From positions 310,001 through 374,000 of the forward strand of contig NZ_JAKZLC010000001.1 of assembly GCF_022808815.1 (NCBI RefSeq): a DNA stretch of 64,000 nucleotides. The letters run 5' to 3'. The stretch's first letter is position 1. Every line of letters starts with the position of its first letter. The notes beneath the pieces were generated by a model, which saw nothing but the letters and a program-made list of their open reading frames with translations, ran no database searches and was not told where the DNA came from. The position numbers were made by a program, and so were the translations under genes. Positions 938 to 4,511 of the stretch are shown here, piece by piece. The DNA is from Geothrix paludis. GTDB lineage: Bacteria; Acidobacteriota; Holophagae; Holophagales; Holophagaceae.

Positions 938-2512
938 ATGCCATGGCGTTCCCTTCTCCTGATCGTCTGCCTCTCCTGGGGCCTGGGCGCCGTTGAGCCC
1001 ATCCGGGTGGCGGTGGATGGCTGGACCACGCTGAACCCCCTCCTCATGACCCGGGACACGGATGGCGAGGCGGTGGACCTCGTCTTCGACCGCCTGGTGA
1101 CCATGAACGCCGAGGGGACCTTCATTCCTGGGCTGCTGCAGAGTTGGACCGTCCTCAAGGGGGGGCGGGAAGTCGTCCTCGACCTGCGCCCGGGCATGAC
1201 CTGGCAGGATGGCACCCCCATCGAGGCGGAGGATCTCGTCTTCACCTGGAAGGCGCTTCGGATGCCCCAGGTGCGGGCCATCGCCGATACGGCCGGCGGG
1301 GTGGCCTCCCTGGACCGCCTGGAAGCCGAGGGGCCCCTGCGAGTGCGCATCCACCTGGCCCGGCCCCGCGGCACGCTCCTCTCCGATCTCTACAACTTCA
1401 TTCCCGTGCCTCGGCGCCACTACCAGGTCGGCCCGAAGCCCCAGTCCGAACCCGTGAACTTCCAGCCGGTGGGTTCGGGCCCCTATCGGCTCGTCGGCAA
1501 AGCCACCACCACGCACCTGAGGCTGGAGCTCTGGCCGGCCTATCGCGGGGCCCACCCTGGTGTCTGGCCCGCCTTCGAGTTCATCGATTCGTCGGAGGAG
1601 ACGAACCTCGTCCAGGCCCTTCTGGAGCGACGGTACCACTACGCCCTGGTGAGGGCCCTGCCGCACTACCTGGTCCGGAAGGGCGCCCAGGGCGGGGGAC
1701 GCCTCCAGGCCTTCTCGGTGCCCCAGGCGGCCTTCGGGGCCTTCTTCCTCAACTGTGATCCCAAGCTGAGCCTGCTGGGCGATGTCGCGTTGCGCCAGGC
1801 CCTGGCGGAGCTGGTGCCCTGGCAGGAGCTGGCGCGCGCCCGGCGCTTCTTCCCGGCCCGGCTCGCCTCCGCCTTCTGGCCCCCCGAGAACTGGGCCCAC
1901 GACGACACCCCGCGACCGCTACCCCAGATCGGACGGGCCGAGGCGATCCTGGAGGCCGCCGGGTGGCGGATGGGCGCGGATGGAATCCGGCATGACGCGC
2001 AAGGCCGGCCCCTCAGCCTGGTGGCCTACGAGCAGAACACCTCCGTCAGCCGCAGCACGGCGCGCCTCCTCGCAGAGGAAGCGGCGAAGGTGGGCATGCG
2101 CATCGAGGTCCGGCGGCTGACCTTCGAGGCGCTCACGGAGAAGTCCACGAATCACGACGGGGACATCTGGTCGTACGGCTGGACGACTTCCCTGGATCCC
2201 GACGTGGATGCCCCCCTGTTCACCAAGGAGGGCTATCGCACCAAGGCGAACGTGAGCAGCTACCTGAATCCGGAGGTGGACCGGTTGTTCGAAGAGGGGC
2301 GCTACACGCTGGATCGGGTCTCCCGCCGGAAGATCTACCTGAAGCTCTCCGAGATCATCTGGCGGGACAAGCCCGTGATCCCCCTCAACTACATCCTGGT
2401 GAGGGTGCTGGCGGACGCCCGGCTACGCGGGGTGTCCTTCAATGTGCTCGGACAGGCCTACGGCTTCTGGCCCGGCAAGCGAGGCTGGAAGCTGGAGGAC
2501 GCCCAGCCTTGA
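938..2512 (+). CDS. ABC transporter substrate-binding protein, peptide/nickel (SBP_bac_5) type
   Basis: A 524-residue protein of the DppA/OppA family, the usual length for this class. Residues 1-18 form a signal peptide (LLLIVCLSWGLGAVEP). The mature protein has the family's landmark segments: DGWTTLNPLLMTRDTDGE at the ligand-cleft start, VLDLRPGMTWQDGTPIEAEDLVFTW near residue 95 (interrupted here only by description), and the C-terminal YLKLSEIIWRDKPVIPL segment. It would capture a peptide or similar ligand in the periplasm for an ABC importer. No permease or ATPase gene lies beside it, so either the transporter is elsewhere or the protein has a receptor-like role. The ligand cannot be inferred from the sequence. 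Confidence 0.85.
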   Translation: MPWRSLLLIVCLSWGLGAVEPIRVAVDGWTTLNPLLMTRDTDGEAVDLVFDRLVTMNAEGTFIPGLLQSWTVLKGGREVVLDLRPGMTWQDGTPIEAEDLVFTWKALRMPQVRAIADTAGGVASLDRLEAEGPLRVRIHLARPRGTLLSDLYNFIPVPRRHYQVGPKPQSEPVNFQPVGSGPYRLVGKATTTHLRLELWPAYRGAHPGVWPAFEFIDSSEETNLVQALLERRYHYALVRALPHYLVRKGAQGGGRLQAFSVPQAAFGAFFLNCDPKLSLLGDVALRQALAELVPWQELARARRFFPARLASAFWPPENWAHDDTPRPLPQIGRAEAILEAAGWRMGADGIRHDAQGRPLSLVAYEQNTSVSRSTARLLAEEAAKVGMRIEVRRLTFEALTEKSTNHDGDIWSYGWTTSLDPDVDAPLFTKEGYRTKANVSSYLNPEVDRLFEEGRYTLDRVSRRKIYLKLSEIIWRDKPVIPLNYILVRVLADARLRGVSFNVLGQAYGFWPGKRGWKLEDAQP

Positions 2513-2518
2513 CCCCGC

Positions 2519-3532
2519 TCAGAGCCGGTCGAAGTGGATGACCTCCACCTTGCCAGGCTTGCCCTTGGGGGCTTCCTCCCGCTCACGCTCGGGGCGGGGC
2601 TCGCGATGGGGCCTGGGCTCGGGCCGCGCTTCGGATTTCGCCTCGGCGTGATGCTTGGGTTCGTGCCGGCGAGGCTCAGGCTCGGGCCGAGGCGCGGGCT
2701 TCGGTGCTGGGGCGGGAGCCAGGCGGTCCCGGCCGGACCACACGGCGCCCACCTGCTTGATGCGGTCCACCAGCCGGGCGGGTTCCAGCACCTGGATGCC
2801 GTCGCCGAACTGCATGGCCCAGCGGGCGATGGCGCGGAGGTCCGTGGCCGTGAAGGTCACGAGGGCCTGGCCGTCGCCCTGTTCTTCGATCTTGAAGCGG
2901 GGGAAGGCCGGGGGCGCCTGCTTCACGGCGAAGACCCACTGCTTGAGCAGGGTGGCCTTCACGGCGATGGGCTCGCCGCCCAGCCAGCCGCCGATCTGGT
3001 TGGCGGGGGTGCCCTCGGCGTAGGGGCCCTGGGCCGCCCGGCCCACGCCCTCGACCTCGTTCACCTCGGCGAGGAGGTCCACCCGGTGGTGGCGCTCGGC
3101 GTTGTAGCGGCGATCCCAGCCCCACACGTACCAGGCCTGGCTGAGGGCGTCGAAGGTGAGCTGCCGGGGTTCGAAGGTGCGCGGCGCGTTGGCATCCGCG
3201 TCGGCGAAGATGAACTCCACGGCGCGACCCTCGCGGATGGCGGCGAGGAGGGCATCCACCAGGGCTGACGGCGCCGCGGCGGGCGCGGCCTTCTTCGCGA
3301 CCGGCTTCGGGGCCGGAGCGGCAGGGGCGATGGGCTCTGGCACGACCTCGACAGCCTTCGCGCCCTTGGCCTTCGCCGGGGCCTTGGCGGCCTTCTTGGC
3401 CTTGGGTTCGGTGGCCTCAGCCTTCTTGGCGGGGGCCTTCTTCGCAGGGGCGGCCTTCGCCTTGGGGGCGGGTTTCTCCACTCCGGCGGTTGCAGCGGTG
3501 GGCTTCTTTCGGGGGGTCTTGGTGACGGCCAT
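2519..3532 (-). CDS. WYL-domain protein with histone-H1-like and charged tails
   Basis: 337 residues in three parts. Residues 1-87 are almost only K, A, P and E, with repeats such as PAKKAPAKK and KAPAKAKGAK, like bacterial histone-H1 tails. Residues 88-165 match a WYL domain: a VEFIF strand, FEPRQLTFDALSQAWYVWGW and an RHHRVDLL strand. Residues 180-262 match the WCX extension (AVKATLLKQWVF, then RWAMQFGDGIQVLEP). The last 70 residues are rich in P, E, R and H. WYL proteins usually carry an N-terminal helix-turn-helix and sense nucleic-acid or nucleotide ligands; here the basic tail replaces it. A role as a non-specific DNA- or RNA-associated regulator is inference. The stop lies 6 bases from the convergent gene at 2512. 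Confidence 0.72.
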   Translation of the reverse strand: MAVTKTPRKKPTAATAGVEKPAPKAKAAPAKKAPAKKAEATEPKAKKAAKAPAKAKGAKAVEVVPEPIAPAAPAPKPVAKKAAPAAAPSALVDALLAAIREGRAVEFIFADADANAPRTFEPRQLTFDALSQAWYVWGWDRRYNAERHHRVDLLAEVNEVEGVGRAAQGPYAEGTPANQIGGWLGGEPIAVKATLLKQWVFAVKQAPPAFPRFKIEEQGDGQALVTFTATDLRAIARWAMQFGDGIQVLEPARLVDRIKQVGAVWSGRDRLAPAPAPKPAPRPEPEPRRHEPKHHAEAKSEARPEPRPHREPRPEREREEAPKGKPGKVEVIHFDRL

Positions 3533-3632
3533 GGGTTCGCGGCTCCTGGCCCATCATCGCCCATTCCGCCAGGGGCGGTCCATGCACAAATCCGCGGCGG
3601 CCATCCTGCCCGTCCGCGGCCATGCTGGAGGG

Positions 3633-4511
3633 ATGGGCCATCGCAACCTCCGCTTCGCCGCCGTCATGGGGCTCCACACGTTCATCTCCGCCGGCACGTA
3701 CCTCCTGGGGAAACCCGCCGCGGACGCGATCCCGACCCTGGCCCTGGGCCTGTTGCGCTTCCTCATCGCCGGCGCGGGATTCCTGATCCTGGCGCGGCTG
3801 CGGCACCTGGAGTTGTGGTCCGTGGCCCGGGCGGAATGGCGGACCTACCTGTGGGCGGGGTTCCTGGGCGTGACGCTGAACCAGCTGGCCTTCCTCGGGG
3901 GCCTGGCCTTCACGTTGCCTTCCCATGCGGCCCTGCTCTACGCGCTGACGCCCACGGTGGTTCTGCTGCTGGCCTGGGCCCGGGGTCAGGAGCGGCCTGG
4001 CCCGCGGAAGCTGGGTGGGCTGGCCTTGGCTTTCTCAGGCGTACTGGTGCTCTTCTCCGGCAAGGCGGGCGGCGCCCTGCCGCCCCGGTGGATCCTGGGC
4101 GACCTGCTGGTGCTGGTGGCGGTGATCGCCTGGGCGGGCTACACCGTGATGAGCCGGCCCCTGGTGCAGAGGGACGGGGCCCAGCGGGCCACCACCCTGT
4201 CCATCCTCTTCGGCCTCGCGATCTTCGCGCCCCTCGGGGCCCTGGGTCTCCCGGGTCTGAAGATGGCCACCGTCCCTCCCGTGGCCTGGGTGGGCCTGGT
4301 CTACCTCGGCCTGATGACCAGCGTGGTGTCCTACCTGCTCTGGTTCCACGCCCTCTCTATCAAGGAACCGAGCCGGGTGGCCATCGCCACCAACGGCCAG
4401 CCCGTGGCCACGGCCATCCTGGCCTGGATCGTCTATGGGCAGGCCATCACACCAGCCTTCGCAGTGGGTGCCGCGCTGGTGCTGGGAGGCGTGCTGCTGA
4501 CGCAGTTGTGA
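3633..4511 (+). CDS. EamA/DMT-family transporter
   Basis: A 292-residue integral membrane protein with about ten hydrophobic helices arranged as two EamA repeats (first repeat from HTFISAGTYLLGKPAAD, second from WILGDLLVLVAVIAWAGYTVMSRPL). This is the 10-TMS drug/metabolite transporter fold, usually exporters of amino acids or other metabolites; the substrate is not evident. The chosen start ATG at 3633 gives the usual family length. It has a GGAGG only one base upstream, so ATG at 3666 is an alternative. The open frame extends further upstream, but that part is antisense to the WYL gene and not hydrophobic. It converges on xerD, with 6 bases between stops. Confidence 0.83.
   Translation: MGHRNLRFAAVMGLHTFISAGTYLLGKPAADAIPTLALGLLRFLIAGAGFLILARLRHLELWSVARAEWRTYLWAGFLGVTLNQLAFLGGLAFTLPSHAALLYALTPTVVLLLAWARGQERPGPRKLGGLALAFSGVLVLFSGKAGGALPPRWILGDLLVLVAVIAWAGYTVMSRPLVQRDGAQRATTLSILFGLAIFAPLGALGLPGLKMATVPPVAWVGLVYLGLMTSVVSYLLWFHALSIKEPSRVAIATNGQPVATAILAWIVYGQAITPAFAVGAALVLGGVLLTQL

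Follow-up and report, generated by a model that had tools for sequence, protein, structure and literature searches.

The C-terminal peptide of a WYL-WCX protein encoded in Geothrix paludis is under selection as strong as that acting on the folded core of the same protein, and this is the main new finding of the present analysis. The gene lies at 2519..3532 of the window (the whole 64,000-nucleotide stretch of DNA analysed) on the minus strand, as do all the features described below, and its open reading frame, 3532..2519 from ATG to TGA, codes for 337 aa; frame, Pfam and orthologues identify the product as a WYL-WCX protein that has no helix-turn-helix (HTH). Pooled over 990 Geothrix pairs, which are not independent of one another, dN/dS is 0.17 for an N-terminal cap, 0.15 for the WYL domain, 0.08 for the connector between the two domains, 0.14 for the WCX domain and 0.09 for the C-terminal tip; it is 0.48 for the N-tail (residues 12-85) and 0.25 for the C-tail (residues 268-322), values that depend on the alignment, unlike the placement of the tip, which is fixed by the C-terminal end. 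The connector (residues 161-188; 2969..3052) is the most constrained region, yet is modelled with low confidence by AlphaFold2.

The tip comprises residues 325-337 (KPGKVEVIHFDRL; 2522..2560) and ends in [DE][RK]L in 68/68 orthologues, and among the 45 copies from the genus Geothrix identity at each of the final ten positions is 82-100%, reaching 100% at six. A search of the genome for the tip peptide as a DNA pattern, which covered one stop codon and allowed up to 2 mismatches, returned a single match, the HTH-less WYL gene itself. The tip is preceded by a charged disordered C-tail (residues 266-324; 2561..2737) of 48-105 residues in the orthologues, which in some of the Geothrix copies contains RPERE-type repeats that vary. 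The description of the C-terminus as a highly charged tail, given in the sequence-only reading, is incomplete, as its final 9-10 residues form a conserved motif. The pLDDT of the tip block was 47 in a first AlphaFold2 model and 54-57 in a model from a deeper alignment, and with 59 of 68 orthologues aligned AlphaFold2 gave no confident placement of the tip on the core of the monomer. In BrxR of Acinetobacter a strap at the C-terminus lies across the WYL domain of the same protein and has been proposed to be a lid (PMC9122601), and by analogy the tip might act as a lid on the WYL domain of the Geothrix protein.

Both domains of the core proposed from the sequence were confirmed. The WYL domain, an Sm-like barrel (residues 90-160; 3053..3265), is matched by PF13280 at residues 92-157 (E 1.4e-8, 35.1 bits against a cut-off of 21.8), and the WCX domain (residues 189-265; 2738..2968) by PF25583 at residues 214-260 (E 1.3e-11, 45.1 bits against 23.9); both assignments combine Pfam with structure. 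In an AlphaFold2 model built on 27 orthologues (mean pLDDT 63.2, pTM 0.32) structure is confined to residues 90-265: residues 1-89, where blocks 1-80 have a pLDDT of 34-49, contain neither helices nor strands, and none occur past residue 265. An HTH precedes the WYL domain in >90% of WYL protein sequences, according to the available text of PMC6789036. Neither Pfam nor AlphaFold2 shows the N-terminal HTH of the HTH-WYL-WCX transcription factors (class A of PMC6789036): no HTH family is among the Pfam matches of the 337-aa protein at E<=1, NCBIfam gave zero matches to it at E<=1, and residues 1-90, where an HTH would have contradicted the sequence-only reading, contain none by either method. 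Seven codons separate the preceding in-frame stop from the ATG, and there is no ATG, GTG or TTG among them, therefore an HTH cannot hide in an upstream extension. Concealment of an HTH upstream or inside the N-tail is ruled out by frame, Pfam and AlphaFold2. Replacement of the HTH by a disordered basic tail, as claimed earlier, was seen in the orthologues read, by Pfam, AlphaFold2 and composition.

The N-terminal cap (residues 1-11, MAVTKTPRKKP; 3500..3532), defined by end-anchored columns, is kept in Geothrix and takes a basic MAPRK-type form in most other genera; it includes a [ST]P[KR][KR] motif. It is followed by a disordered tail rich in K, A and P (residues 12-87; 3272..3499), with a pLDDT mostly <50 and variable length and sequence. 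Residues 1-87 together contain 22% K, 35% A and 18% P, with a net charge of +16. A rule-based start was obtained for 62/68 orthologues (the other 6, one of them cut by a contig end, were omitted from N-terminal counts); in these 62 the K+A+P fraction ranges from 0.44 to 0.76 (median 0.63) and the net charge from +1 to +18 (median +11), with low values of +1 to +3 in three copies from other genera. Tail length is about 53-142 residues, an upper figure that may reflect a start placed too far upstream. The prospect that the tails vary freely is borne out for their lengths, their middle sequences and the N-tail charge, but not for the N-cap and the C-tip, which are constrained. These same data bear on an explanation in which the protein is a former WYL regulator whose tails are functionally neutral, GC-driven low complexity and whose folded core alone matters. 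The tail middles evolve fastest and RPERE-type repeats have expanded in part of the genus, as such an explanation would expect, but the two ends of the protein are constrained like the core and tails were found in the orthologues read with the relevant end intact, so that neutral tails appear quite unlikely.

The N-tail had been likened to linker histones, and the likeness is sound as regards composition (K/A/P-rich, basic and disordered), but nothing indicates common descent. Linker histone H1 is matched in its K/A/P-rich basic disordered tail by composition only; Pfam shows no linker-histone family at E<=1, and hence no H1 winged-helix domain, the folded part being WYL-WCX. A similarity search with the N-tail found itself alone at E<=0.01, although such a search may discount low-complexity matches. 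The bacterial H1-like proteins, AlgP and Hc2 among them, likewise have a lysine-rich basic tail or body, with repeats accounting for its variable length, and their descriptions in the available portions of the sources include no WYL core (PMC9239181, PMC2848022). The H1-like KPAA tail of AlgP binds DNA and is required for the spacing of polyphosphate granules, as stated in the accessible text of PMC9239181, and a comparable tether could be envisaged here, with the K/A/P tail holding the chromosome and the remainder a polyphosphate or PHA granule. Reading of the sequence shows no KPAA tandem array of the AlgP/PhaF kind, Pfam shows no AlgP/PhaF-type domain, the folded part is WYL-WCX and not the helical domain on which AlgP/PhaF carry their repeats, and none of seven window neighbours pointed to granule genes, all of which makes a tether highly improbable.

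By Foldseek, the best PDB matches to the core are DriD and PafBC, with 7tzv_A at E 8.7e-11. VIA gave 9cu3_B (Z 12.2, rmsd 9.8, 167 aligned), 6sj9_B (Z 12.0, rmsd 7.7, 158 aligned) and BrxR, 7qfz_D (Z 11.5, rmsd 3.2, 84 aligned); the large rmsd across both domains suggests that the model places them differently relative to one another. DriD of Caulobacter and PafBC of mycobacteria are ssDNA-sensing HTH-WYL-WCX activators with the same WYL-WCX fold and domain order as the Geothrix protein, in which most of their basic groove positions are matched. It differs from them in its missing HTH, in the loss of the equivalent of PafC R204, in long disordered tails at both ends and in the conserved C-tip. 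Within the groove R118, R123, R141, R142, R147 and H149 are kept in 68/68 orthologues, as is Y/F135. HMMER aligns R118, Y/F135, R147, R150 and L153 with PafC R171, Y186, R198, R201 and R204, respectively. According to the available text of PMC11804915, mutation of PafC R201/R204 together with PafB R211/R214 abolishes ssDNA binding, mutation of the PafB pair alone suffices, and PafB R181 and Y196 are also required. Judged from a constant offset of ten, PafB R181 and Y196 would equal PafC R171 and Y186. The two-arginine WYL signature of PafBC and DriD is not retained, with R150 in 60/68 orthologues and position 153 never R (0/68) but L, Q, A, F or I in 68/68. The groove is kept but altered compared with PafBC, therefore the ligand may differ.

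Tails of this kind are unusual in the genome and are not a generic feature of its high-GC DNA. Six-frame scans were made over 864 kb, consisting of the window and 40 further stretches and amounting to 25% of the 3.41 Mb genome. In 60-residue windows scored for K/A/P the HTH-less WYL protein ranked top at 0.82, with three other windows over the threshold: the C-tail of an RNase E/G family protein (0.78), a sodium:sulfate symporter (0.75) and a borderline window (0.60). The scan for R/P/E placed the C-tail of the WYL protein first (0.86), followed by Tex (0.76), the only other one taken as real; 15/17 rows of that scan look by eye like wrong frames of high-GC DNA and were not counted. The RNase E/G family protein, with its H1-like K/A/P C-terminal tail, is encoded at L118:16465-18852 (minus strand) of the same genome, and Tex, with an R/P/E-rich C-terminal tail resembling that of the WYL protein, at L124:1728-4235 (plus strand). 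Both carry S1 RNA-binding domains and are the only other nameable soluble proteins with comparable tails in the 864 kb. They lend some weight to a role on the RNA side, as an Hfq/Sm-like RNA binder or a degradosome accessory with tails that bind RNA or form condensates, as does the alignment of the WYL barrel with Hfq and Sm proteins (4juv_A, Z 8.7, rmsd 2.7, 63 aligned). However, Sm-like barrels generally align in this manner, a Z below ~8 can reflect no more than a similar arrangement, close relatives with solved structures are ssDNA binders, and elsewhere in the genome there is an Hfq-like match that falls short of its cut-off (25.9 bits against 27). An RNA-side role is rather unlikely on this balance.

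In a census of 93 genomes of the class, at a threshold of E below 1e-100, an orthologue was present in 45/47 genomes of the genus Geothrix, in 23/30 from other Holophagaceae genera and in 0/16 from two other families. Completeness is 80% and 58% for the two Geothrix-genus genomes that lack it; elsewhere in the family it is missing from 3/3 genomes of a genus whose genomes measure 0.9-1.2 Mb, from 3/4 of another genus and from one genome that is 81% complete. Across the phylum an orthologue was found in 37/396 genomes, all Holophagaceae, and three further genomes match weakly (E 3e-11 to 6e-7). The 57 loci in Holophagaceae include Geothrix terrae, campi, fuzhouensis, oryzisoli, fermentans, limicola and rubra as well as uncultured members. 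Two MAGs titled Bacillota and Deltaproteobacteria (L179, L183) carry the Holophagaceae protein, and their titles look wrong. Core identity is 84-99% inside the genus and 64-83% between genera. When seven window neighbours were followed through 38 loci, xerC/D, acpP, fabF and uvrB were common to many of them, several genera included, and therefore vertical descent is indicated. The gene is convergent with an SBP5 gene and divergent from an EamA gene in the window; at other loci the closest co-directional gene among those tested may be xerC/D, and EamA is not always in between. A function based on an operon was dropped, as the flanking genes are convergent or divergent and an operon was not established. 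A promoter and terminator scan of 2400-3800 gave none. Judged by titles and the starts of abstracts, none of the open-licence PMC papers listed on WYL proteins in connection with lysine-rich or disordered regions, Geothrix or Acidobacteria describes this protein.

There are four WYL matches in the genome, and the nearest to the HTH-less core, with 32% identity over the core, is an HTH-type protein encoded at C3:447084-448142 (minus strand). This paralogue, the nearest WYL-WCX relative found, has the IGGW connector motif in common with the HTH-less protein, but differs in having a stretch of ~180 residues ahead of its WYL domain in which HTH matches are weak (HTH_11 in 7/16 members, best E 0.0077), no K/A/P tail, lower conservation (its orthologues in other genera are 39-57% identical at full length) and a narrower spread. 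At E<=1e-50 it occurs in 47/47 genomes of the genus and in 12/30 of the other family genomes. Its N-terminus, MVRSTPRK (L062:3085-4143, minus strand), resembles the MAVTKTPRKK of the N-cap. The genus with 0.9-1.2 Mb genomes (G053, G100, G101) has neither protein. An HTH-less regulatory subunit that pairs through WCX with this HTH-bearing paralogue and modulates it, on the model of PafB and PafC, would accord with its closeness, its weak HTH matches, its presence throughout the genus and the description of PafBC, in the available text of PMC6789036, as a WCX-linked pair of modules. Against such a pairing, the two genes are unlinked, on contigs C1 and C3, and the paralogue is missing at E<=1e-50 from 12/23 family genomes outside Geothrix that carry the HTH-less protein, including G049 (97% complete), G052 (96%) and G105 (95%). 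The HTH-less protein is therefore not simply its subunit, obligate partnership is weakened and a subunit role is unlikely. HTH loss after duplication would be the likeliest origin of the HTH-less protein.

The architecture, the conservation, the absence of an HTH and the constraint on core, N-cap and C-tip point to a family-specific, vertically inherited WYL-WCX protein that lost its HTH or never had one, and that tentatively, with a chance a little short of even, acts as a nucleic-acid-binding adaptor. The Sm-like WYL groove would still bind nucleic acid or another phosphate-rich ligand, the basic N-tail would supply non-specific affinity for DNA or RNA, and the C-tail would be a flexible tether whose tip, ending in [DE][RK]L with a free carboxyl group, would dock on one partner protein; by analogy with PafBC, dimerisation through WCX is likely. 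Such an adaptor might bring its partner to nucleic acid, or answer a nucleic-acid ligand, without itself recognising a promoter. Spread, shared neighbourhood, core identity, constraint on both termini, the DriD/PafBC fold, the six groove residues kept in every orthologue and the tails of RNase E/G and Tex count for the adaptor. Counting against it are the lost R204 equivalent, the incomplete conservation of the R201 equivalent, the low N-tail charge of three copies and the undocked tip on the AlphaFold2 monomer, and the comparison with RNase E/G and Tex is weakened by a scan of a quarter of the genome and by the K/A/P window of the symporter. The earlier proposal of a non-sequence-specific nucleic-acid binder with a ligand sensor holds as regards the missing HTH and the real WYL core, but the function itself is deduced from composition and fold.

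SSB is likewise a small beta-barrel nucleic-acid binder with a variable disordered linker and a conserved C-terminal tip, although it belongs to another fold family and has another tip sequence. A hub of this type, in which WYL-WCX would hold single-stranded nucleic acid, the K/A/P tail would grip non-specifically and the linker would offer the C-tip to recruit an enzyme of repair, transcription or RNA processing, is a lesser possibility; if true, this WYL protein would be an architectural or recruiting factor and not a transcription factor. Here an HTH-less WYL member is conserved across the family, and better than its HTH-bearing relative; it has a tail at either end, and its C-terminal peptide is under constraint. 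The C-tip offers a direct bait to find the partner and, if it does recruit one, the role of WYL domains would extend past that of transcription factors.
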